Shown: positions 5,851-22,005 of the stretch, in pieces | Numbering within the stretch: position 1 is the first letter of the stretch | How the letters are laid out: each line of letters starts with the position of its first letter | Assembly: GCA_024399655.1 (NCBI GenBank) | Contig: JAKSNP010000004.1 | Coordinates: 1 to 64,000, forward strand | DNA from: Paludibacteraceae bacterium | GTDB lineage: Bacteria > Bacteroidota > Bacteroidia > Bacteroidales > Paludibacteraceae | Reading direction: 5' to 3' | Length of the DNA stretch: 64,000 nt | Position numbers and translations under genes: made by a program | The notes under the pieces: model-generated | Seen by the model: only the letters and a program-made list of their open reading frames with translations | The model's database searches: none | Told to the model about the DNA's origin: nothing

Positions 5851-7269
5851 ATGAGATATCAAATCACGACCGAATCTTATGAATCAAAACCACCAAAAGG
5901 TTCTCCGCTATGGAGAAAAATGAGATGGGAAGCAGTAGAGACCGATATAGATAAGTTCTACGACTACATCCGTAAAAATCACTTTGTGAGACCCAACCTT
6001 AAATCTACATCTAACTATGGAGATAGAGAGTTTATTTCCTCCAACGTTATTTTCTTGGACTACGATAAGGGGGAGATTACAATGGATGAATTCATCTCCA
6101 AAACGACAATAACTCCATCTTTCTATTATAAGTCACACTCATCTAACCCCGAAGGCAATAGGTTTAGGGTTGGGTATGTGGTGGATACTCCCATTTGTTC
6201 TCCTGATGAGTTTAAGATATACTCACGAGAGCTAGCAGCACACAATGGAGTCATCTCTATGGAAGACTGGGACGAAGGTTCGTTCTCTGCCACAAGAATG
6301 TTTTGTGGTGCAGAGTATGGGTTTCATTCAACAGGTGAAGTGATGTCCCTAAAAGGACTTCGAGAGAGAATACCTCCTGAAATGTTCTCCACATCAAACA
6401 AATTCGCATACGAAGCAACAAAACATGAAACACAAAGAGAACCCTCTAAGAGACGAGGACTGACCACAGAGGAACAGATAATACGGGATGAGTTCTTCAA
6501 GAACGGAGTCGATTGGTTTATATCTCAACATATACAACCGGTCATAGAACACTCAACTCCCATCAGTGAAACAGATTTGTTCCTCTTCTACAATCCCGAT
6601 AAGTATTTCGAGGTAATTAAGAAACGTTCTTTCAACGGAAAGGTAATGAGCAATTATCATTATGATGATGTCTCTTGCACCTACAAAAGGAACTGTTTCG
6701 TCGATGGAGAGCATAGAAGAAATAAGATTGCAGTATCTCTATCTTTTATACATCAGATTGCTCCGGAATTATCCTTGACAGATTTACTCACACAAGAACT
6801 TCTATATATCAGAAACAACATTGATAACAATAAGAATCCCATAGATAAAACGTGGATTTGGGATACTTGTATCAAAGAGTACATCAAACCAAGGAACTTT
6901 CCTTGTATGAGACACAAGAAAATGAGTATAAAGAAAGGATTACTGGGAAACCAACACTATAAATCCTTCATTAAGAATTTCAGAAAAGACTATTGTCTTT
7001 CTATATATGATAACTCTCTATCAGTCTCTGATAATGTTAAGATTATAAACGAGTATCTCTATGAAGACACAGAAACTAATAGTTTGTTTGTCAACGAACG
7101 AACTCTAAAAAACTATCTTAAAGAAGAACGTGTTATTTATACTAACAAACCAATAGATGAGGTTAAGAGACTCTATCAAGAAGGATTACTTACCTTGGAT
7201 ATTCTGAAAGAGTATAAAGGAAAGATTGATAAGAACTCTATGACTAAATATAAAAGACTAATATCATAG
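5851..7269 (+). CDS. Primase-like (AEP/PrimPol-type) replication protein
   Basis: A 472-residue protein. Residues about 60-170 have the pattern of archaeo-eukaryotic-type primases of mobile elements: a hydrophobic-D-x-D motif (VIFLDYDKG), a YYKSHSS segment, NRFRVGYVVDTPI and a later SATRMFCG. In related enzymes these form the metal-binding and nucleotide-binding site. The C-terminal 300 residues are mostly basic and helical and not recognised; no helicase Walker motifs are seen. It probably serves replication of the excised element. The last 66 codons lie inside a 333-bp tandem duplication, and a truncated copy follows at 7399. Codon use is AT-rich like the integrase gene. The assignment is from motif pattern alone. 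Confidence 0.6.
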   Translation: MRYQITTESYESKPPKGSPLWRKMRWEAVETDIDKFYDYIRKNHFVRPNLKSTSNYGDREFISSNVIFLDYDKGEITMDEFISKTTITPSFYYKSHSSNPEGNRFRVGYVVDTPICSPDEFKIYSRELAAHNGVISMEDWDEGSFSATRMFCGAEYGFHSTGEVMSLKGLRERIPPEMFSTSNKFAYEATKHETQREPSKRRGLTTEEQIIRDEFFKNGVDWFISQHIQPVIEHSTPISETDLFLFYNPDKYFEVIKKRSFNGKVMSNYHYDDVSCTYKRNCFVDGEHRRNKIAVSLSFIHQIAPELSLTDLLTQELLYIRNNIDNNKNPIDKTWIWDTCIKEYIKPRNFPCMRHKKMSIKKGLLGNQHYKSFIKNFRKDYCLSIYDNSLSVSDNVKIINEYLYEDTETNSLFVNERTLKNYLKEERVIYTNKPIDEVKRLYQEGLLTLDILKEYKGKIDKNSMTKYKRLIS

Positions 7270-7273
7270 ATAG

Positions 7274-7404
7274 AATTCCTATTTCTAACATTATGTATAT
7301 ATACACAAAAGAACACCAACCACAATATCATTAGTGTAAGAAATAGGAATTATACTATTCGTTGAAACAAGAAAACAGGCATAGACCCGGATGAGTCTAT
7401 GCCT
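7274..7404 (+). repeat. Inverted repeat plus hairpin after the primase-like gene
   Basis: AATTCCTATTTCT (7274-7286) is exactly inverted at 7339-7351 across 52 nt, and a perfect 10-bp hairpin follows (7377-7386 with 7395-7404). The same pair recurs 333 bp downstream (7607-7684 and 7710-7737; the second hairpin has one C-A mismatch). It could be a replication origin, a processing site or a terminator without a T-run. None of these is proven. Confidence 0.55.
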
Positions 7405-7602
7405 GAAACTAATAGTTTGTTTGTCAACGAACGAACTCTAAGAAACTATCTTAAAGAAGAACGTGTTATTTATACTAACAAACCAATAGATGAGGTTAAG
7501 AGACTCTATCAAGAAGGATTACTTACCTTGGATATTCTGAAAGAGTATAAAGGAAAGATTGATAAGAACTCTATGACTAAATATAAAAGACTAATATCAT
7601 AG
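7399..7602 (+). pseudogene. Duplicated C-terminal fragment of the primase-like gene
   Basis: A 67-codon open frame created by the tandem duplication. It starts at an ATG inside the hairpin and then repeats the last 65 residues of the upstream gene with one residue changed (Lys to Arg). It has no ribosome-binding or promoter signal of its own that I can see, so I treat it as a by-product. Confidence 0.75.
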
Positions 7603-7737
7603 ATAGAATTCCTATTTCTAACATTATGTATATATACACAAAAGAACACCAACCACAATATCATTAGTGTAAGAAATAGGAATTATACTATTCGTTGAAA
7701 CAAGAAAACAGGCACAGACCCGGATGAGTCTATGCCT

Positions 7738-7931
7738 GAAACTTTATGATAAAAAATATGATGAACAGGATTTCACCTGCGTACTATATTTATGAATTTT
7801 GTTCTCCTGAAATAGTGACCAAGTCCGACAAATCCCGTGATGGATCTGCCGGACTTCTTACGATTGCTTGCCGAATAAAAGCATGCAAAACACACTAATC
7901 TAAGGAAATTTTGAAGAAAACCGACAAAAAA
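7738..7931. other. Gap before the structured RNA, nothing recognised
   Basis: About 190 bp without a convincing reading frame. Apart from a weak TCCGACA...GCCGGACT inverted repeat around 7827-7856, I see no feature. Confidence 0.5.
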
Positions 7932-7963
7932 TTTGTTTTTTTCAAAAAAAAAGTGTAACTTTG
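7932..7963 (+). promoter_or_regulatory. Consensus promoter of the structured leader RNA
   Basis: TTTG (7932-7935) and TAACTTTG (7956-7963) are spaced by 20 nt, as elsewhere in the window. An inverted repeat (7963-7973 with 7979-7989, one G-T pair) overlaps the expected start site near 7968. Confidence 0.8.
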
Positions 7964-7967
7964 CAGC

Positions 7968-8275
7968 AGTTTTCGCAAAAAATTGCTGCTACCATCAAAT
8001 GTAGAGGTGATAGTTTGCAGAACAAGACATATTGAAAAAGGCGTTATAACGCTTTGCTCTTGGCTACCTTGAATGTGAGAAACTCAATGTAATCAGTCAA
8101 GACGAAGCAACTGAACGCCTGCATAGGTTGTATAACTATGCTCTTGTTGTATCCTATTAAGTAGGATGCGTTAGACGTATATATATACAACGGCAGGCTG
8201 GGTTGCTCGTTCACTGATTCGGGCATTTCTCACAGCCTAAGGTAGCAGGACGAGTAATTCGAGCCTGCTTTTTTT
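7968..8275 (+). ncRNA. Structured RNA or regulatory leader, about 300 nt
   Basis: The transcript expected from the promoter at 7932 has no convincing reading frame but contains five co-linear nested helices: 8063-8070/8239-8246, 8074-8082/8226-8234, 8091-8097/8213-8219, 8106-8111/8202-8207 and 8117-8122/8193-8198. The inner part can form more hairpins (8121-8126/8136-8141, 8151-8156/8162-8167) or an alternative 8146-8152/8185-8191 pairing. A 12-nt palindrome lies at 8041-8052. A terminator ends it at 8275, 40 nt before the next gene, which has no visible promoter of its own, so it may be a cis-acting attenuator. A free small RNA is the alternative. I do not recognise it as a known family; the rod shape recalls 6S RNA, but nothing else supports that. 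Confidence 0.7.
8244..8275 (+). terminator. Rho-independent terminator ending the structured RNA
   Basis: AGCAGG (8244-8249) pairs with CCTGCT (8264-8269), followed by seven T residues. The first three bases are also the end of the outermost helix of the upstream RNA (8239-8246), so the two foldings partly compete. Confidence 0.75.
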
Positions 8276-8315
8276 ATACCCATATCTGAACATCGACAAC
8301 ATAAACTAATACAAT

Positions 8316-8729
8316 ATGACAACATTCAAAATTTCGACATCCGAGAAGTGGTTCGACCAAAGAATTAACAAAGAGTTCTTCATTCAGTGCCTCATCCAAG
8401 AGGGATTGACGCTTACCACGCCTGGTGAGTGGATGGACTGTGTAAAAGTAGATGGTGATCGCATCGATGCCGAGGAACTTACATTCTGGGATTCGGATTG
8501 CTCTATTATTAACTGGAAAGAATCGGAGGTAGAGACGGAGAGTGGAGTGAAGTCCTTAAAGGATGTTCAGACAGTATCCTTTGAGAAGGCAGTACTCCTC
8601 AATATGACCGAGAAGTTCCAGAACGCATCTCCTGCCGGACATTTCCTCTGTACCCTAAAAGCGATTTGTGAAGCCCTTGGTGCTGCCGAGAATGTGCAAG
8701 GAGTTGGAGTCATCGAGTTTAAAGATTAG
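8316..8729 (+). CDS. Hypothetical protein, 137 aa
   Basis: I do not recognise this small soluble protein. It has no signal peptide, membrane segment or cysteine cluster, and reads as a mixed alpha/beta cytoplasmic protein with a slight acidic bias. It is the first gene after the structured RNA and its terminator, and no promoter consensus lies in the 40 nt between, so its expression probably depends on read-through. The next gene begins 35 bp downstream and is likely co-transcribed. Confidence 0.7.
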   Translation: MTTFKISTSEKWFDQRINKEFFIQCLIQEGLTLTTPGEWMDCVKVDGDRIDAEELTFWDSDCSIINWKESEVETESGVKSLKDVQTVSFEKAVLLNMTEKFQNASPAGHFLCTLKAICEALGAAENVQGVGVIEFKD

Positions 8730-8764
8730 TTACTTCCATTGGATGCCATCGGAAGGTAATCAAT

Positions 8765-9229
8765 ATGGACATTCAGATTGTTATCTCGGATAATCGCAGA
8801 TTGTATGTGGAGGCTGCTACGCGTACTGAGCTGAAGCTGACGAAACTTCAAAGGTGCGTGTATTGCTTGCTACTGGAAAGAGACGCAATGGGTACAGGAG
8901 AGGAGCGATGGGAGCACTCAGCTCGTCTATGTGCTCTTTACGACTTTTTTAACCAGAGTATTGGAACAAAGCCACGTTATGCGTATGAGTGTGTGGTAAA
9001 TCTGATGCCTCCCATAGAGCCCGATGGCAAACGAAAAAATCAAGCCTTGCGTGAATTGATTAGCAAGGCGAACCGGAAAATTCGAGAGTGCGTACCAGAC
9101 TACGCGGACGAACTGGTCATCAAATACAAAGACGGACGGTACTATATTGATGTCCCCAAGTCACAGGTAAAATACGAAACGACCAGTACTGCCTTTTCCT
9201 CCCTCCGTAAAGGTTGCCAGATTCGATAA
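8765..9229 (+). CDS. Hypothetical protein, possible winged-helix domain, 154 aa
   Basis: Not recognised by name. The central part has LTKLQRCVYCLLL (about 25-37), a helix with ALYDFF, then ALRELISKANRKIRECV and YKDGRYYIDVP. This is a helix-helix-helix-strand pattern similar to the C-terminal part of the 375-aa protein at 4337. That order suggests a winged-helix-like domain and perhaps a DNA-binding role, by inference only. It follows the 137-aa gene by 35 bp. Its last codons (KGCQIR) are encoded by the first bases of the next promoter module, so coding and regulatory sequence overlap at 9212-9229. Confidence 0.65.
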   Translation: MDIQIVISDNRRLYVEAATRTELKLTKLQRCVYCLLLERDAMGTGEERWEHSARLCALYDFFNQSIGTKPRYAYECVVNLMPPIEPDGKRKNQALRELISKANRKIRECVPDYADELVIKYKDGRYYIDVPKSQVKYETTSTAFSSLRKGCQIR

Positions 9230-9277
9230 ATGTCAAAATAAAGTTGTAACTTTGCATCGTAATTCAAAAAGATGCAA
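9212..9277 (+). promoter_or_regulatory. Shared promoter module, copy 1
   Basis: GGTTGCCAGATTC (from 9212), AAATGT (9228-9233) and TAACTTTGCATCG (from 9247) recur at identical spacing at 11540 and 14297. The GGTTGCC box begins 35 nt and the AAATGT box 19 nt before TAACTTTG. There is no TTTG at the usual -33 place. TTGCATC (9252-9258) is inverted at 9271-9277, across the expected start site. This looks like an activator-dependent or repressible promoter specific to the element. Confidence 0.8.
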
Positions 9278-11527: not shown

Positions 11528-11539
11528 CGCTAAAATAAG

Positions 11540-11606
11540 GGTTGCCAGATTCCATAAATGTAGAAAAAAAGTTGTAACTTTGCATCGTAATTCAAAAATG
11601 ATGCAA
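11540..11606 (+). promoter_or_regulatory. Shared promoter module, copy 2
   Basis: GGTTGCCAGATTC from 11540, AAATGT at 11556-11561 and TAACTTTGCATCG from 11575, with the same 35- and 19-nt offsets as copies 1 and 3. TTGCATC (11580-11586) is inverted at 11600-11606, and the next ATG is at 11609. Confidence 0.8.
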
Positions 11607-12163: not shown

Positions 12164-14287
12164 ATGACGATGGACACGATTCAGACTATTTGCAACCTGA
12201 GCCCTATGTTACAGGGCTGTAAAACAACAGAGTGGGATAAAAACTCTGATGTACAATTCCACCTTGATTCACTAACGAGTTACCTGCAACTGGAAAATAG
12301 TCGTCAGGTGGCTCTTTTTGTGGCTATGTTCGACCGAAACATTACTGCTCGATGGTGCGACGTCGATAATTTACTCCGATATTTTGGCGTATCGGCAATG
12401 GAGTTCGTGCCGTTAGTTAGAGAAATTGAGGCGATGGTTCAAATGGGACACGTACAGAAGAAAGATATAGATGAATCAATCACCTCTACCGACTTTCGTA
12501 TCGTAAAAGGAATACTCGATGCCGTAGTTTGTGGAAATAAGATAGAGGTGTGTCCTCCACTCCCCGATACGGAATTCAATCGATATTCGTTCTGTCGAAA
12601 AATCAGCAACTGGGTGGAGAACACCGATGTAACTACCAAGGAGTTGATAGCAAATATGCTGGATTTGGAGTCCCGCCATCACGACCTTGTGTTCGTTGAG
12701 CAAAGTGTCCGGCAAATCCCCGACCTATATGCACGTGCTCTCTTCTATGATATGTGTAACGACTTTATTGCCACGACTAACCGTCGAATGTCAGCAGAAG
12801 GATACTCAGAGATTCGAATGACGATGCGAGATCTGTTTAGTAGCGACATCCATCAACGCAACCTCCAAACCTCACTACTTCGTAGCAAGCAACACCCCCT
12901 TTGTCTCGACCATTTCATAGAGGTAGACGTACAAGGTAGCGAACTTCACTTGTCCGGCAAAGGTAAACGATTGTTTTTGGAGGATGATTTTGCGGCCTAT
13001 GCCCCCAACTACTACAACCTGGATCGATATAAGTTCGCCAAGGCTATTCACGAGTATTTACACAGCAAAGAGGCCGGTTTAGCCATACAAGAAGAGGGAG
13101 AACAGGAGGAGAACACTATCACACGAAACATTCAGGAGATGGAAGACTGCAACCCACAACTTCAAGCTATCATCACGCTACGTAAGTTATTACCTGATGC
13201 TCGTGAACGGGCATTGGTCTATGAAGGAGCCTACTCGCTCATCTACTGTGGCTCAGGAGCCAACTTACAAGAAGCCAGCGGCTGTCTCTATGATATTCGT
13301 GGTCAACGACGACTAATGAATGCCATGGCCGAGGAACAGCACAATTTGCAACGCTTGGGATTAGCAAAGATAGAAAAACGTAGCAGTTTCTTCGGCGAGA
13401 CGACTATCCTATGTCTCACAGGAAAAGGATGCAATACCTATTTTGAGGAAGATGCCGCACTTTATGCTCCGAAAATGGAAGTCAAGAATAGGATAACAAC
13501 TGACACCATCATCTCCAAGCCCCTCTTCTTTGCCGACGAATTAGACCGTCAGTTGTCGCTGGTTCGCAATAGTCTGTACGAGGATGCCTACCAGACCCTT
13601 TGTGCTCGTTTGAAGGAAAAGCATATGCCGCAAGGGATAACCGTCCTACTCTATGGTCATCCAGGTACAGGCAAAACAGAGAGCGTGATGCAGATGGCTC
13701 GAGCCACGGGACGCGATGTAATTCACGTGGATATTGCCGCCAGTAAGTCGATGTGGTTTGGAGAGAGCGAGAAGAAGATAAAAGAGATATTTGATAACTA
13801 TCGTCAAGTATGTGAGGTATGTCAACGGAAACCGATTCTGCTTTTCAACGAGGCAGATGCCCTGTTCGGAAAACGCAAGGACACCGCCAATGGCAGTTGT
13901 GCACAAACAGAAAATGCCATCCAGAACATCCTATTGGAGGAGATGGAGCAACTGGACGGTATTCTGATGGCTACGACGAACCTGACAGATAACCTCGACG
14001 CAGCCTTCGAACGTCGTTTCCTTTTTAAGGTACGTTTCGAACGACCTACGGAGGAGGCAAAGACTCGTATATGGCAGAGTAAACTACCCAACTTAACAAC
14101 TACTGAAGCAGAGCAATTGGCTGCTCAATACGACTTCTCCGGTGGCGAGATTGACAACATTGTGCGTCGTGCGACTATGAAAGAGCTGATAGAAGGAGCC
14201 ACTATCACACCCGATATGCTGGATGAACTTTGTCGAAACGAACGACTGACATCAGGCAATCATACAAAGCGAATAGGATTTTATTAA
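12164..14287 (+). CDS. AAA+ ATPase with winged-helix-like N-terminal region, 707 aa
   Basis: The C-terminal third is a clear AAA+ module: Walker A GHPGTGKT (about residues 496-503), Walker B ILLFNEADALFG (about 560, with Asn where Asp is common), sensor 1 ATTN and an arginine-finger-like ERRF, then a small helical lid. The N-terminal 450 residues contain two similar parts (around 15-170 and 250-430), each with helices and a short beta end; they resemble N-terminal regions of other Bacteroidota AAA proteins, but I cannot name them. Such ATPases remodel proteins or complexes. It ends the operon of two small membrane proteins under module copy 2. A defence or stress role is possible but unproven. 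Confidence 0.85.
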   Translation: MTMDTIQTICNLSPMLQGCKTTEWDKNSDVQFHLDSLTSYLQLENSRQVALFVAMFDRNITARWCDVDNLLRYFGVSAMEFVPLVREIEAMVQMGHVQKKDIDESITSTDFRIVKGILDAVVCGNKIEVCPPLPDTEFNRYSFCRKISNWVENTDVTTKELIANMLDLESRHHDLVFVEQSVRQIPDLYARALFYDMCNDFIATTNRRMSAEGYSEIRMTMRDLFSSDIHQRNLQTSLLRSKQHPLCLDHFIEVDVQGSELHLSGKGKRLFLEDDFAAYAPNYYNLDRYKFAKAIHEYLHSKEAGLAIQEEGEQEENTITRNIQEMEDCNPQLQAIITLRKLLPDARERALVYEGAYSLIYCGSGANLQEASGCLYDIRGQRRLMNAMAEEQHNLQRLGLAKIEKRSSFFGETTILCLTGKGCNTYFEEDAALYAPKMEVKNRITTDTIISKPLFFADELDRQLSLVRNSLYEDAYQTLCARLKEKHMPQGITVLLYGHPGTGKTESVMQMARATGRDVIHVDIAASKSMWFGESEKKIKEIFDNYRQVCEVCQRKPILLFNEADALFGKRKDTANGSCAQTENAIQNILLEEMEQLDGILMATTNLTDNLDAAFERRFLFKVRFERPTEEAKTRIWQSKLPNLTTTEAEQLAAQYDFSGGEIDNIVRRATMKELIEGATITPDMLDELCRNERLTSGNHTKRIGFY

Positions 14288-14296
14288 AGTTGAGAG

Positions 14297-14363
14297 GGTT
14301 GCCAGATTCAGGAAATGTCCTAAAAAAAACGTAACTTTGCATCGCATTTCACGAGAGATGTAT
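14297..14363 (+). promoter_or_regulatory. Shared promoter module, copy 3
   Basis: GGTTGCCAGATTC from 14297, AAATGT at 14313-14318 and TAACTTTGCATCG from 14332, with the same 35- and 19-nt offsets. The inverted repeat is weaker here (TTGCATC at 14337-14343 facing GATGTAT at 14357-14363). The gene start is 47 bp further on, leaving a longer leader than at the other two copies. Confidence 0.8.
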
Positions 14364-16092: not shown

Positions 16093-17655
16093 ATGGCAGA
16101 CAATAAAAAAGAACAAGAGCGAGCAGAACTCCACAGAACTATTTGGGCTATCGCAGATGAGATGCGTGGCAGTGTAGATGGATGGGACTTCAAGTCCTAT
16201 ATCCTCGGTATGCTCTTCTACCGATACATCTCGGAGAACATTACTAACTACATCAATCGTGGCGAGTGGGAAACGGGTAATAAGTCCTTCGACTATGCCA
16301 CTCTGGATGACGCTACCGCAGAGAGTGCTCGTGAGGAGATGGTGAATGTAAAAGGATTCTTTATCCTACCGTCGCAACTCTTTGCAAACATCTGCAAGGT
16401 ATGCGACAAAGACCCAAATCTGAACGAAACTCTCGAGCAGATATTTACTGCTATCGAGTCGTCTGCCAAGGGCACAGCCAGCGAGGATGACTTCAAGGGA
16501 TTGTTCGCAGATCTGGATGTAAACAGCAATAAACTGGGAGCCACGGTCATCAAGCGAAACGAGAAGCTCGTCAAGCTCCTCCGTGGTGTGGAGCAGATGA
16601 AGTTGGGGGACTACCAAGACAACACCATTGATGCCTTCGGTGACGCATACGAGTACCTGATGGGTATGTATGCCAGCAACGCAGGCAAGTCGGGAGGTGA
16701 ATACTATACTCCACAGGAGGTAAGTGAACTCCTGACTAAGTTGGCCACTCTGGGTAAGACTGCGGTCAATAAGGTCTATGACCCTGCGTGCGGCTCGGGT
16801 TCGTTACTATTGAAAGCCGCCAAGATTCTCGGTAAGGATAATGTGCGTCAAGGTTTCTTCGGACAGGAAATCAACCTGACCACTTACAACCTCTGCCGTA
16901 TCAATATGTTCCTTCACGACATCGACTACGACAAGTTCGATATTGCGTGCGAAGATACACTTCTCACTCCCCAGCACTGGGATGACGAACCCTTTGAGGT
17001 GATTGTGTCCAACCCTCCGTATTCTATCAAGTGGAAGGGGGACGACGATATCACCCTTATCAACGACCCTCGCTTTGCACCGGCCGGTGTGCTTGCTCCG
17101 AAGAGTAAAGCAGACCTTGCATTCATTATGCACTCTTTGGCCTGGCTGAGCACCAACGGAACAGCAGCAATTGTATGCTTCCCGGGTGTGATGTATCGTG
17201 GTGGTGCAGAGAAGAAAATTCGTCAATATCTCATCGACAACAACTATGTGGATACAATTATCCAACTTCCCGATAATCTGTTCTTCGGCACCTCTATTGC
17301 TACCTGCATCATGGTGCTCAAAAAGGCAAAGAAGGATAACGCTACGCTCTTTATTGATGCAAGCAAAGAGTGCGTCAAGGTAACGAACAGCAACAAACTG
17401 ACGAATGAGAACATCCAGCATATCGTGGATGTATTTGCTGCTCGTGTGGATAAGGACTATGTCTGCAAGTTAGTTAAGAACTGCGATGTTGCCGCTGCCG
17501 ATTACAACCTATCTGTCAGCACGTATGTAGAGCAAGAAGATACCCGAGAGAAGGTGGATATTAAGCAGCTCAACGCTAATCTGAAAGAGATTGTTGCTCG
17601 TGAAGAAGTGCTCCGCAAGGAGATTGATAAAATCATTGAGGAGATAGAAGGATGA
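16093..17655 (+). CDS. hsdM: Type I restriction-modification methyltransferase subunit (HsdM)
   Basis: HsdM methylates adenine within the sequence chosen by HsdS, forming the M2S modification core of the type I complex. The 520 residues include the N-terminal HsdM helical domain (about 5-150), the SAM-binding [11 protein letters not shown] (about 229-239) and the catalytic NPPY (about 306-309). The length is normal. It is the first gene of an intact hsdM-hsdS-hsdR operon with its own promoter, and its stop overlaps the hsdS start as ATGA at 17652. All expected motifs are present, so the enzyme is likely active. Confidence 0.95.
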
Positions 17656-18881
17656 GCAAGCTAAACGACCTCATATTACAATACTGCCCCGAGGGAGTGG
17701 AATATCGTCCATTGGGAGAAGTGTGTCAAAAGATTTTTGCGGGAGGTACCCCAACATCCACTAACAGTGCATACTATGGTGGTGACATACCTTGGCTGCG
17801 TTCTGGCGAAGTAAATTTTAACGAAATCACTTCAACGGAAAAATATATCACAGAGGCTGGATATAATTCATCTTCCGCAAAATGGATTGAGAAAGAAAGT
17901 GTTTTGATTGCTATGACAGGAGCAACGGTTGCCCGTTCAGCGATGACGTTAATTCCTCTCACAGCAAACCAATCAGTATGTGCTCTAGTTCCCAATAGAG
18001 ATATACTCAATTATCGTTTCTTATACTATTGCATCTCGCACGATTACGAGAAAATCAAGGCTGCTGCCCAAGGTGCATTAACCAGCATCAATCTCAATCT
18101 CGTCAAAGCACTCTCCATCCCCGTTCCACCACTCCCAGTGCAAGAAGAGATAGTCCGTATTTTGGATAATTTTTCTCTGCTTTCAGCAGAGCTGGAAGCA
18201 GAGCTGGAAGGTCGAAGAAAGCAGTATGATTTCTATCGAAACCAACTGCTATCCTTCGATTCAGATTCTGATTCAGTTCAGTGGAAGAAATTGGAGGAAA
18301 TTGTTTCCTCACACTGCAATTTGTCCTATGGTATTGTGCAACCAGGAGACGATGTCAATGGTGGGATTCCAGTGGTTCGTCCTGTTGACCTTGGAAAAGG
18401 AAAAATTGTAATTTCAACGCTTAAACGGACAAAAAAAGAAATTTCAGATAGTTATAAGCGGACCATCTTAAATGGGGATGAAATCTTATTATGCGTTCGA
18501 GGAACAACCGGCATAATGGAACTTGCGACAGAAGAACTTCGAGGATGTAACGTAACGCGGGGAATAGTTCCTATCGCTGTGGATTGCCAATACAATGTTA
18601 GATACATATACCACATTTTAAAGTCTGATAAAATACAATCGGCAATAGCAAACAAGACTAATGGTGCCGCTTTGCAACAAATAAATGTAAAAGACCTACG
18701 AGGTTTAGTTATTCCAATCCCATCATTAGAAGAACAGGAACGAATTGCCAATATCCTTGACCGCTTTGACACGCTGACCAACGACCTCTCCGCAGGTCTT
18801 CCGGCAGAGATAGAAGCTCGAAAGAGGCAATACGAACACTACCGAGATAAGTTACTCACCTTCAAACGAAAGGACGCTTAG
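17652..18881 (+). CDS. hsdS: Type I restriction-modification specificity subunit (HsdS)
   Basis: HsdS recognises a bipartite DNA target through two target recognition domains and bridges HsdM and HsdR. The 409 residues split into TRD1 (about 1-155), a central conserved helix ([15 protein letters not shown] and onward, about 160-200), TRD2 (about 205-355) and a C-terminal conserved helix ([16 protein letters not shown] and onward). Both halves are complete. It overlaps hsdM by 4 bp and ends 1 bp before hsdR. I see no second hsdS cassette or inverted repeats that would suggest phase-variable specificity. Confidence 0.95.
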
Positions 18882-18882
18882 T

Positions 18883-21800
18883 ATGGCAATATATAATACC
18901 ATAGCAGAGACCAACGACTACACGATTGTTGCCTCGTATGAGCACTCCGTTAAGACTGCGGAACACTATCAGAGTGAAGCACAATTGGAGGCCGAGCTTA
19001 TCCGTATGCTGGGTGAGCAGGGATACGAGTATCTTCCTATCCATACGGAGAAGGATCTCATAGATAATCTTCGTAAGCAGTTAGAGAAACTCAACGACTA
19101 CCACTTCACCGATAAGGAGTGGGATACCTTCTTCAATGAGTGTATTGCCAACAAGAATGATGGTATTATTGCCAAGACCACGAAGATACAAGAGGACTAT
19201 ATCCAAAACCTCAAACGTGAAACCGGTGAGACCAAAAACATCTATCTCATCGACAAGGCCAATATCCATAACAACTACCTCCAAGTTATCAACCAATATG
19301 AGGAGACCGAAGGAGCACACGACACTCGCTATGATGTCACTATCCTTGTGAATGGCTTACCCCTCGTGCATATCGAATTGAAGCGTCGTGGAGTTCAGTT
19401 GAAAGAGGCCTTCAATCAGATTAAGCGGTACCAACGAGATTCGTTCTGGGCAGGCTGTGGTCTGTATGAATATGTTCAGATATTCGTCATCAGCAACGGA
19501 ACGAATACCAAATACTATTCCAACACGACCCGTAATCGTCACCTGGAAGAACAAAAATCCAATACGAAGAACAAAAAGAAGACCAGCAACTCCTATGAGT
19601 TCTGTTCGTTCTGGGCAGATGGTAGCAACAAGCTGATTACCGACCTCATCGACTTCACCAAGACCTTCTTTGCGAAGCACACTATCCTGAATATCCTCAC
19701 CAAGTATTGCGTCTTCACCAGTGAACGTGACCTGCTCGTGATGCGTCCCTACCAGATTGCTGCAACCGAACGAATCATCCAGAAGGTGAATGTGGCCAAC
19801 AACTACAAGCAGTACGGCACTATCGACGGTGGCGGATATATCTGGCACACCACGGGTTCCGGAAAGACCCTCACTTCATTTAAGACGGCACAGTTGGCAT
19901 CCAAACTGGACTATATTGATAAGGTGCTCTTCGTCGTGGATCGTAAAGACCTCGACTATCAGACTATGAAGGAGTATAACCGATTCGAAGAGGGTGCTGC
20001 CGATAGCAACACTTCTACGGCTGTGCTCCAACGACAACTGGAAAACAAGGATAAGAAAGGTGCTTATCACGAATATAAGATTATCATCACCACCATCCAG
20101 AAACTCTCTATCTTCGTTCAGAAGAACAAAGGTCACGAGATATTCGACAAGCAGGTGGTAATTATCTTCGATGAGTGCCATCGCTCTAACTTCGGTGAGA
20201 TGCACCAGGCTATCACCAAGAACTTTAAGAAATATCATCTGTTCGGTTTCACAGGCACTCCTATCTTTGCGGCTAATGCCAGCAGTGGAGGCGACCTGAC
20301 AATGAAGACCACCGAGCAGGCCTTTGGTGAGAAACTCCACACATACACTATCGTCGATGCCATCAACGACCAGAATGTGCTTCCGTTCCGTATCGACTAC
20401 GTGAATACCTTCAAAAAGAAAGAGGATGTAGAGGATCAGCAGATTTCTGCCATCGACCGAGAGAAGGCCATGCAGGCCCCGGAACGAGTAGAGAGTATTG
20501 TTCGTTATATCCTCAAGCACTTCAACCAGAAGACCCGCCGTAGTGATTACTATGACTTCCGTGTTCTCCAGAACATCACCGAGGTATCATCTGCCAAACG
20601 AGGTGAGGAGGTGAAGGAGAAGAAGATGGCTCAGAAACTGAATGGTTTCAATGCGATGCTTGCCGTTGCTTCCATCCCGATGGCAAAAGCATACTACAAC
20701 GAGTTCAAGCGTCAGCAGGCAGAACTTCCCGAGGCACAAAGACTCCGTATCGCTACGATATTCAGCTATGGTGCTAACGAAGATGAGATAGAAGGCATCC
20801 TGGTTGAGGAGAACTCCGAGAGCACAACAGCACTCGACCAGCAGAGTCGTGACTTCCTCGACGGAGCCATCAAGGATTATAATGCCATCTTCAAGACCAA
20901 CTTCGATACGAGCAACGATAAGTTCCAGAACTACTACAAGGACCTATCTCTCCGTATGAAGAACCGACAGGTGGATTTGCTTATCGTGGTTAATATGTTC
21001 CTTACGGGATTCGATGCTACTACGATGAACACCCTCTTTGTAGATAAGAACCTGCGTCAGCACGGACTCATTCAGGCATACTCCCGTACCAACCGAATCC
21101 TCAATTCTGTCAAGACCTTCGGCAATATCGTATGCTTCCGTGACCTTCAGAAGGAGACCGATGATGCAATTGCTCTCTTTGGTGATAAGGATGCACAAAG
21201 TATTGTGCTCCTCAAGGACTATATGTCCTACTATATGGGTTACACGGATGAAAAGGGCAAGTATCACCCCGGATACATCGACCTCACAGCCGAGATGCTC
21301 AATAAGTTCCCCGAGGGAGAACCCATCGTAGGAGAAGCAGCCGAACGAGAGTTTATCGGTCTCTTTGGCAGTATCCTCCGTATGCGGAATATCCTGGCCA
21401 CCTTCGACCAGTTTGAGGAAGGACAGAAGACCTTACCTCCCCGTCAGTTCCAAGACTACACAAGCATCTACCTCGACCTCAAAGAGAAGCATCGTCCGGT
21501 CAAGAAGGAGGCGGTCGATATCAACGACGACCTTGTCTTCGAGACTGAACTGATCCGTCAGTTGGAGATAAACATCGATTACATCCTGTTGCTCGTGAAG
21601 AAATTCCACGATAGCAATTGCGAGAACAAGGAGATACTTGTGGATATCAGCAAGGCCATCGGAGCCAGCTTGCAACTCCGTAGTAAGAAGGAACTCATTG
21701 AGAACTTTATTGCCAGCGTCAATGCTTCTACCGATGTGGATACCGATTGGCAGACCTTTGTGAAACAGCAGAAAGAAGCCGACCTGAACGAGATTATCGT

Positions 21801-22005
21801 AACTGAGAATCTCCGTCCCGAGGAGACCCAGCGATTCGTGGAGAGCAGCTTCCGTGATGGTGAGATTCGTACGACCGGAACGGATATTGACAAGATACTC
21901 CCACCTATGTCCCGTTTCGGTGGCGGTGGAAACCGTCAGGAGAAGAAACAGTCTGTCATCCAGAAACTGATGTCCTTCTTCGAGCGTTACTTCGGACTGG
22001 TATAA
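18883..22005 (+). CDS. hsdR: Type I restriction endonuclease/translocase subunit (HsdR)
   Basis: HsdR pulls unmodified DNA with ATP and cuts it away from the target. The 1040-residue protein has an N-terminal nuclease domain with the PD-(D/E)xK-type sequence DVTILVNGLPLVHIELKRR (about 149-167), helicase motif I HTTGSGKT (about 322-329), a DECH motif II (FDECHRSNF, about 428), motif III FTGTP, motif VI QAYSRTNR and a C-terminal helical domain. The length is normal. It starts 1 bp after hsdS and is followed by a terminator at 22036. The set is complete and apparently functional, and would defend the host and the element. Confidence 0.96.
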   Translation: MAIYNTIAETNDYTIVASYEHSVKTAEHYQSEAQLEAELIRMLGEQGYEYLPIHTEKDLIDNLRKQLEKLNDYHFTDKEWDTFFNECIANKNDGIIAKTTKIQEDYIQNLKRETGETKNIYLIDKANIHNNYLQVINQYEETEGAHDTRYDVTILVNGLPLVHIELKRRGVQLKEAFNQIKRYQRDSFWAGCGLYEYVQIFVISNGTNTKYYSNTTRNRHLEEQKSNTKNKKKTSNSYEFCSFWADGSNKLITDLIDFTKTFFAKHTILNILTKYCVFTSERDLLVMRPYQIAATERIIQKVNVANNYKQYGTIDGGGYIWHTTGSGKTLTSFKTAQLASKLDYIDKVLFVVDRKDLDYQTMKEYNRFEEGAADSNTSTAVLQRQLENKDKKGAYHEYKIIITTIQKLSIFVQKNKGHEIFDKQVVIIFDECHRSNFGEMHQAITKNFKKYHLFGFTGTPIFAANASSGGDLTMKTTEQAFGEKLHTYTIVDAINDQNVLPFRIDYVNTFKKKEDVEDQQISAIDREKAMQAPERVESIVRYILKHFNQKTRRSDYYDFRVLQNITEVSSAKRGEEVKEKKMAQKLNGFNAMLAVASIPMAKAYYNEFKRQQAELPEAQRLRIATIFSYGANEDEIEGILVEENSESTTALDQQSRDFLDGAIKDYNAIFKTNFDTSNDKFQNYYKDLSLRMKNRQVDLLIVVNMFLTGFDATTMNTLFVDKNLRQHGLIQAYSRTNRILNSVKTFGNIVCFRDLQKETDDAIALFGDKDAQSIVLLKDYMSYYMGYTDEKGKYHPGYIDLTAEMLNKFPEGEPIVGEAAEREFIGLFGSILRMRNILATFDQFEEGQKTLPPRQFQDYTSIYLDLKEKHRPVKKEAVDINDDLVFETELIRQLEINIDYILLLVKKFHDSNCENKEILVDISKAIGASLQLRSKKELIENFIASVNASTDVDTDWQTFVKQQKEADLNEIIVTENLRPEETQRFVESSFRDGEIRTTGTDIDKILPPMSRFGGGGNRQEKKQSVIQKLMSFFERYFGLV

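Follow-up and report, generated by a model that had tools for sequence, protein, structure and literature searches.

A large family of structured leader RNAs in Bacteroidales, probably cis-acting transcription attenuators

The RNA encoded upstream of position 8316 in the window, by which we mean the entire stretch of 64,000 nucleotides that was analysed (positions 1 to 64,000 of contig JAKSNP010000004.1 of a Paludibacteraceae bacterium), is a member of a large RNA family. The sequence analyses make it very probable that this RNA is a cis-acting transcription attenuator and that it forms the leader of the gene following it. This view is based on covariation in the helices of the RNA, on complementarity between an internal strand (B) and the 5' side of the terminator (T), on the co-orientation of the downstream genes and on the absence of a second promoter. 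The features of the window copy, and the two genes behind it, are given below; helices P1 to P6 are those of the fold in which the terminator was enforced.

7932-7963, + strand: promoter, TTTG plus TAACTTTG
7969-8023, + strand: 5' hairpin of the window copy, ahead of the conserved core (from the fold)
8026-8274, + strand: conserved core of the leader family, matched by covariance model R1 with 129.4 bits
8038-8055, + strand: P1 hairpin, 8038-8044/8049-8055 (fold and covariation); its 3' strand resembles the terminator 3' end
8065-8071/8238-8244, + strand: P2 (fold with the terminator enforced, and covariation)
8074-8082/8226-8234, + strand: P3 (fold and covariation), with short flanking stems in relatives
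8091-8097/8213-8219, + strand: P4 (fold)
8101-8105/8207-8211 and 8107-8112/8201-8206, + strand: P5 (fold)
8101-8112, + strand: strand A (GACGAAGCAACT), the 5' side of P5, which by eye resembles the terminator 5' arm
8117-8198, + strand: P6, 8117-8122/8193-8198 (fold), enclosing a variable apical hairpin
8201-8212, + strand: strand B (GGTTGCTCGTTC), able to pair with A (P5) or with the terminator 5' arm
8221-8225, + strand: conserved GGGCA between the 3' strands of P4 and P3, able to pair with the GCC preceding the P2 3' strand
8226-8244, + strand: 3' strands of P3 and P2 (fold and covariation)
8245-8275, + strand: intrinsic terminator, stem 8245-8249/8264-8268 and U-tract to 8275
8248-8262, + strand: strand T, the terminator 5' side and loop (fold)
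8316-8729, + strand: first gene after the leader, 137-aa protein without a Pfam match, no family assigned
8765-9229, + strand: second gene, 154 aa, no family assigned, before the next promoter core at 9247

The original prediction placed a consensus promoter at 7932-7963, and this region indeed contains a -33 TTTG (7932-7935) and, at a spacing of 20 nt, a -7 TAACTTTG (7956-7963) on the + strand, which together match what we take to be the Bacteroidota promoter consensus. The approximately 310 nt between the promoter and the first gene contain no plausible gene; in agreement with the claim that the RNA carries no reading frame, the only listed ORF of at least 60 aa over it is one of 60 aa on the opposite strand (8044-8226). 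The U-tract ends at 8275, 40 nt before the start codon at 8316, and no promoter core was found in between, so that the gene was rightly described as lacking a visible promoter.

The segment 7968-8290 folds at -115.8 kcal/mol, against a mean of -78.5 for shuffled sequences (z = -6.8), and none of 100 shuffles was as stable. Folding with the terminator enforced recovered the nested helices that had been proposed within 8063-8246; the rho-independent terminator proposed at 8244-8275 is present in the sequence, with the stem and U-tract listed above. It had also been proposed that the terminator stem shares three bases with the outermost helix. Such sharing was found, but it involves two bases: when folded without constraint, P2 extends to 8063-8071/8238-8246 and has two bases in common with the terminator stem strand 8245-8249. 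The apical hairpin differs in length and sequence from copy to copy, and the 5' region of many other family copies differs from the 7969-8023 hairpin of the window copy.

Within the 178 genomes of the genus, blastn searches with the core produced matches in 48; with the whole segment, many matches came from the promoter alone. A covariance model built from 18 copies, all of the window's genus, matched 171 of these 178 genomes, including 67 of the 68 good ones. The model also matched 40 of 247 genomes sampled from the order (33 of the 173 genera represented) and 2 of 296 sampled from the phylum, namely the window's own and one from another order of the class. Copy numbers in the large genome scans are lower bounds, because part of the candidates was scored. 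When 150 candidates were scored in each genome, eight near-complete ones chosen among those with matches contained 17, 8, 14, 8, 21, 11, 7 and 12 copies (range 7-21), and the window's own, incomplete genome contained one. An exact pattern derived from the 3' half was present in at least 120 stretches of the GTDB species genomes; among the 80 titles listed, three belong to Firmicutes-type organisms and the rest to Bacteroidales. When 74 of these pattern loci were scored with the genus-trained model, 72 were matched, one of them weakly (L149), and L118 and L150 were missed; together with 13 earlier members, the model matches 85 of 87. Records of the cultured species Segatella copri, Hallella mizrahii, Prevotella ihumii and Bacteroides caecigallinarum contain the pattern.

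Compensatory changes in the helices, which had been set beforehand as the test of the predicted structure, are abundant. When 18 copies were aligned with plain MAFFT, independently of the structure, 95.8% of the cells are paired and 91 double changes occur, versus 6-12 when the partners are slid; further pair types show no excess (27 versus 27.7 in shuffles). For 85 diverse members aligned to the model, an alignment made to fit the structure and biased in its favour, 97.3% of the cells are paired, 447 double changes were counted versus 21-48 with slid partners, and all five measures lie above those of all 500 shuffles. In this alignment, all seven model pairs of P2 have changed on both sides, with at least three pair types per pair and 99.8% of cells paired; for P3, 99.2% of cells are paired and six of the seven pairs show changes on both sides. 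Judged by these substitutions, the RNA fold is under strong selection. Besides the covarying helices, the conserved core contains conserved unpaired bases (GGGCAA, GAA and GCC, which in the second set are partly fixed by the search pattern), a combination characteristic of riboswitches.

In many members the 5' strand of P3 is flanked by GAA(A)/(U)UUC stems. Its 3' strand is flanked by GGC:GCC in 144 of 152 members and by GGU:ACC in three; of the remaining five, four fit GGU:ACC by eye, leaving one exception. Given these short flanking stems on both strands, P3 may be a loop-loop (kissing) helix.

In the window, the calculated duplex energies are -19.0 kcal/mol for B-T, -14.6 kcal/mol for A-B and -8.4 kcal/mol for the terminator hairpin alone, and the core folds at near-equal energies without constraint (-96.6) and with the terminator enforced (-94.2). 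As far as can be judged by eye, A resembles T, as expected of a competitor for B. Across the GTDB set, all 11 positions of T pair with the constant B in 57 of 72 members and at least 10 in 66 of 72, compared with 0.3% and 3.6%, respectively, when T is shuffled. The variation in T among these 72 members consists mostly of changes that preserve G-U or Watson-Crick pairing with B, and the mean B-T energy is -18.3 kcal/mol versus -11.5 for shuffled T (71 members). Since B is fixed by the search pattern in this pattern-selected set, own (-18.3) and permuted (-18.4) partners do not differ there. Of the 73 first-set members used, in which B varies, 32 are non-redundant, and in these B pairs more strongly with its own T than with permuted ones (0 of 10,000 permutations as low), a test that, like the one for A-B, ignores relatedness and is helped by two subfamilies with different B and T; in one weak member among the 32, B-T amounts to only -5.2 kcal/mol. 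Similarly, in the wider A-B region including P4 the native partner gives better pairing than partners taken from other members (0 of 5000 permutations, kinship ignored).

The B-T pairing would form a pseudoknot with P2 and P3, which is beyond the reach of the folding tools. The unconstrained fold of the window copy shows neither the terminator nor B-T; instead, 8035-8043 is joined to 8266-8274, and 8054-8061 to 8249-8257, which would be a different antiterminated form. In 71 members, pairing of T with the 5' strand of the 8054-8061 type has an energy of -9.5 versus -8.4 for shuffled sequences; own partners are better than permuted ones in 2000 of 2000 cases, by a small advantage, and this pairing is stronger than B-T in none of the 71. 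For pairing of the 5' strand with the terminator 3' arm the values are -7.86 versus -5.72 for shuffled sequences, with weak covariation (101 of 2000). The five nucleotides preceding the last four bases are C[AG]CG[CT] or TGCGC in 69 of 72 members and resemble the P1 3' strand. Because the pairing of the 5' strand with T is much weaker across the family and never exceeds B-T, the latter is the best candidate for the antiterminator; a nested antiterminator formed from 5' strands pairing with the 5' or the 3' arm of the terminator is a possibility. Taken together, B-T, A-B and the near-equal energies point to mutually exclusive terminator and antiterminator pairings, as expected of an attenuator.

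According to the mechanism that we propose, RNA polymerase would start just past 7963 and make the leader. As long as B (8201-8212) is paired with A (8101-8112), the terminator would fold and transcription would stop at 8275. If B captures the terminator 5' arm (8248-8262), the terminator could not fold and transcription would read through into the gene at 8316. The two states presumably interchange in the cell, with a balance that may depend on a small-molecule or protein signal or on how fast transcription proceeds.

The position of the RNA relative to its neighbours was analysed in several sets. In the first set, which excludes four copies with less than 400 nt downstream, two flawed matches and duplicates but retains orthologous loci and some tandem copies that precede a shared gene, the longest ORF starting within 500 nt downstream is co-oriented in 68 of 76 copies and opposed in eight. 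In the GTDB set, 105 of 120 loci were callable; 99 downstream genes are co-oriented and six opposed, whereas upstream neighbours have the same orientation in 56 cases and the opposite one in 50. Two genomes with 38 copies gave 35 co-oriented and two opposed genes among 37 callable copies, two of the co-oriented copies sharing one gene. Of 149 members, 130 have a TAnnTTTG core in the 200 nt upstream, compared with 9.9% of background windows, while the 100 nt downstream contain such a core in 8 of 148, which is at the background level of 5.0%. A run of at least four Ts is present at the 3' end of 146 of 150 members. Co-orientation and promoter placement, as expected for an attenuator, indicate that the leader is co-transcribed with the downstream gene, and on these grounds we regard the family copies as leaders of their downstream genes.

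The window copy precedes a gene (8316-8729) that, when used as a query in the 178 genomes of the genus, was found only in the window's own genome. Additional TAnnTTTG promoters are present in the gene block at 9247-9254, 11575-11582 and 14332-14339. Because of the promoter from 9247 on, only the two genes within 8316-9229 are predicted, as far as promoters show, to depend on the leader; the earlier description of an operon without other promoter therefore holds for these two genes but not for the rest, which have promoters at 9247, 11575 and 14332. These three promoters (9207-9254, 11535-11582 and 14292-14339) share an upstream GGTTGCCAGATTC block, resembling a small dispersed promoter repeat. 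On the other side of the leader, 7051-7410 and 7384-7743 form a direct duplication (period 333 nt, identity 94.7%), which repeats the 3' end of ORF 5851-7269 and the sequence following it. Comparison with defence models did not assign the gene block to a known system. BspA-like LRR proteins are encoded in the same block as the AAA protein at 12164-14287, whose AAA domain accounts for its matches to the IetA (best 2e-25) and TRIP13 defence models; a type I restriction system (16093-22005) follows downstream.

Among the matches listed, LRR_5 is the commonest Pfam family downstream of first-set copies (10 of 63 proteins). For the 99 downstream proteins of the GTDB set, the matches listed include LRR_5 (10), Big_2 (4), NusG (3), outer-membrane barrel (3) and UvrD (2); among the best 25 of 105 families, the models for BREX, type III methyltransferase, IIG and Gabija-type helicase are each or jointly hit by a small number of members. 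By a crude rule for export signals, for which no background rate is available and to which we give no weight, 53 of these 99 proteins have a hydrophobic N-terminus. In the two genomes, 10 downstream proteins comprise radical-SAM, sigma-70 region 4, sulfatase, MauE-like and LRR_5 proteins, and five without a match. The downstream genes thus look varied and accessory, encoding BspA-like surface proteins, lipoproteins, restriction and other defence systems and NusG-like factors. As no single pathway is prominent among them, they suggest that a general signal lies behind the leader.

The original prediction offered a cis-acting attenuator or riboswitch-like control alongside a free small RNA. The cis-acting branch is the better supported one, because across the family the downstream genes are co-oriented and without another promoter, and because the terminator and the internal strand are complementary in divergent members. 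A free-standing small RNA acting in trans, for which the downstream gene is a mere neighbour, would account for the own promoter and terminator, the compact fold and the few copies with an opposed downstream ORF (8 of 76, 6 of 105 and 2 of 37), and a terminated leader would release such an RNA anyway; as the sole function it is nevertheless improbable, in view of the orientation of downstream genes (99 of 105) against upstream neighbours (56:50) and of downstream spacers containing promoter cores at background only. The order of promoter, structured RNA, terminator and gene, which is that of type III toxin-antitoxin pairs of the ToxI type, would also fit an antitoxin RNA. We consider this extremely unlikely: the commonest Pfam family covers only 10 of 63 and 10 of 99 downstream proteins, so there is no common toxin, by eye the RNA contains no repeat array, and it has no Rfam match at threshold. 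Surface proteins, restriction and capsule are phase-variable classes in Bacteroides, and some downstream genes resemble them, but a phase-variable promoter cassette with an incidental RNA has just as slight a chance. Exact 11-nt inverted repeats flank the promoter in 1 of 124 cases versus 6 of 394 control regions, which led us to reject invertible promoters, and the strong selection on the RNA fold (447 double changes versus 21-48 slid) also speaks against an incidental RNA. Retron, guide-RNA and transposon-linked RNAs were set aside solely on the diversity of the downstream genes and the lack of an Rfam match.

As for how an attenuator of this kind would be controlled, we favour a P2-P3 core that itself senses a general signal, given that the family places a single conserved core ahead of many unrelated genes. 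It is rather unlikely, though less so than any of the above alternatives, that the attenuator is governed by a protein or an altered RNA polymerase (for instance, through an antitermination factor that is a NusG paralogue) and not by a small molecule. In Bacteroidota, NusG-like UpxY factors act on capsule leaders, and among the matches listed 3 of 99 downstream proteins are themselves NusG-like. A processive factor would be unnecessary, however, because the terminator and antiterminator strands are both within the RNA, and the conserved unpaired GGGCAA, GAA and GCC (partly pattern-fixed) would suit a ligand pocket as well. The most specific form of the attenuator reading, to which we give somewhat less than an even chance, is an unassigned Bacteroidales riboswitch class in which two hairpins joined by a kissing loop sense a general signal, and strand exchange at the terminator sets 7-21 accessory operons per genome, comprising surface proteins, capsule regulators, and restriction and other defence systems. 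If true, many of the genes by which gut Bacteroidales meet their hosts and phages, among them those for surface proteins, NusG-like capsule-type factors and restriction systems, would be under one RNA-level control missed by Rfam. The 7-21 copies per genome in the eight chosen near-complete genomes are many for a single leader class. With a conserved core and cultured carrier species, the question of the signal is directly testable.

The RNA had been described as not belonging to a recognised family, and the suggested Rfam search bears this out: Rfam 15 gave nothing at threshold over the window RNA, with sub-threshold matches only in its 5' part (E 0.16-1.7), nor over the RNA in 15 plus 8 further loci, the 15-locus set containing a single overlap below threshold, on the complementary strand at L010. 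Transcription-terminating riboswitches with pseudoknotted aptamers form a general class of leaders, which the present family resembles in its leader position, its covarying conserved core and the strand shared by terminator and antiterminator. Riboswitches for c-di-GMP likewise occur in several copies before unrelated genes. In contrast to Rfam riboswitches, the family has no match at threshold and forms a long rod with a variable apical hairpin, and its gene set holds no metabolite hint. With the UpxY-associated capsule leaders of Bacteroides it has in common that it is a 5' leader in Bacteroidota (with regulated read-through there, and predicted read-through here), but it has its own terminator and antiterminator strands, and most copies do not precede a NusG-like gene. 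From ToxI-type RNAs it differs in the points given above. Bacteroidales-1 RNA (RF01693) is, like the leader family, a structured RNA of Bacteroidales, but it is a different RNA: 22 of 41 genomes contain one match each, the window's genome contains none, and by eye the matches in G005, G009, G016 and G017 lie elsewhere than the listed leader matches. It is listed as 'Y ? ?' for RNA, cis-regulation and switch (PMC2864571). We recognised no description of the leader RNA in the literature listed, supplementary tables aside, and it may be among the thousands of candidates in PMC8040213; a word search of the main texts of PMC11109978 and PMC8632094 found no Bacteroidales names. We file the leader RNA as a new class within the transcription-attenuating leaders, and the name riboswitch would require a ligand.

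That the RNA is carried by a mobile element, as was also put forward, is less supported as a property of the family. The window copy had no blastn match in plasmid or phage records and the L140 copy none in plasmids, and the pattern occurs in two stretches of viral contigs, so that few copies were found in phage or plasmid records.

In two loci, the 35-nt DUF805b RNA (RF02914), classified as Cis-reg in Rfam, adjoins the leader and lies between it and the downstream gene (L010:1568-1602 and L044:1847-1881), starting 35 and 116 nt, respectively, past the end of the leader core and thus outside it. An abiF RNA (RF03085) is located on the opposite strand at L112:1254-1290, near a leader copy preceding a helicase-like gene. 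Neighbouring leader copies of unlike sequence before one gene were observed in L103 (2965-3589), L025 (1315-1740), L055 (1038-1737) and L295, the second copies of L025 and L055 being weak matches; a two-input arrangement is possible for such pairs. Finally, many copies of the genus (L010, L011, L017 and L031-L043) have, between the promoter and the core, an extra 5' domain of roughly 80 nt, at the place where the window copy has a plain hairpin.
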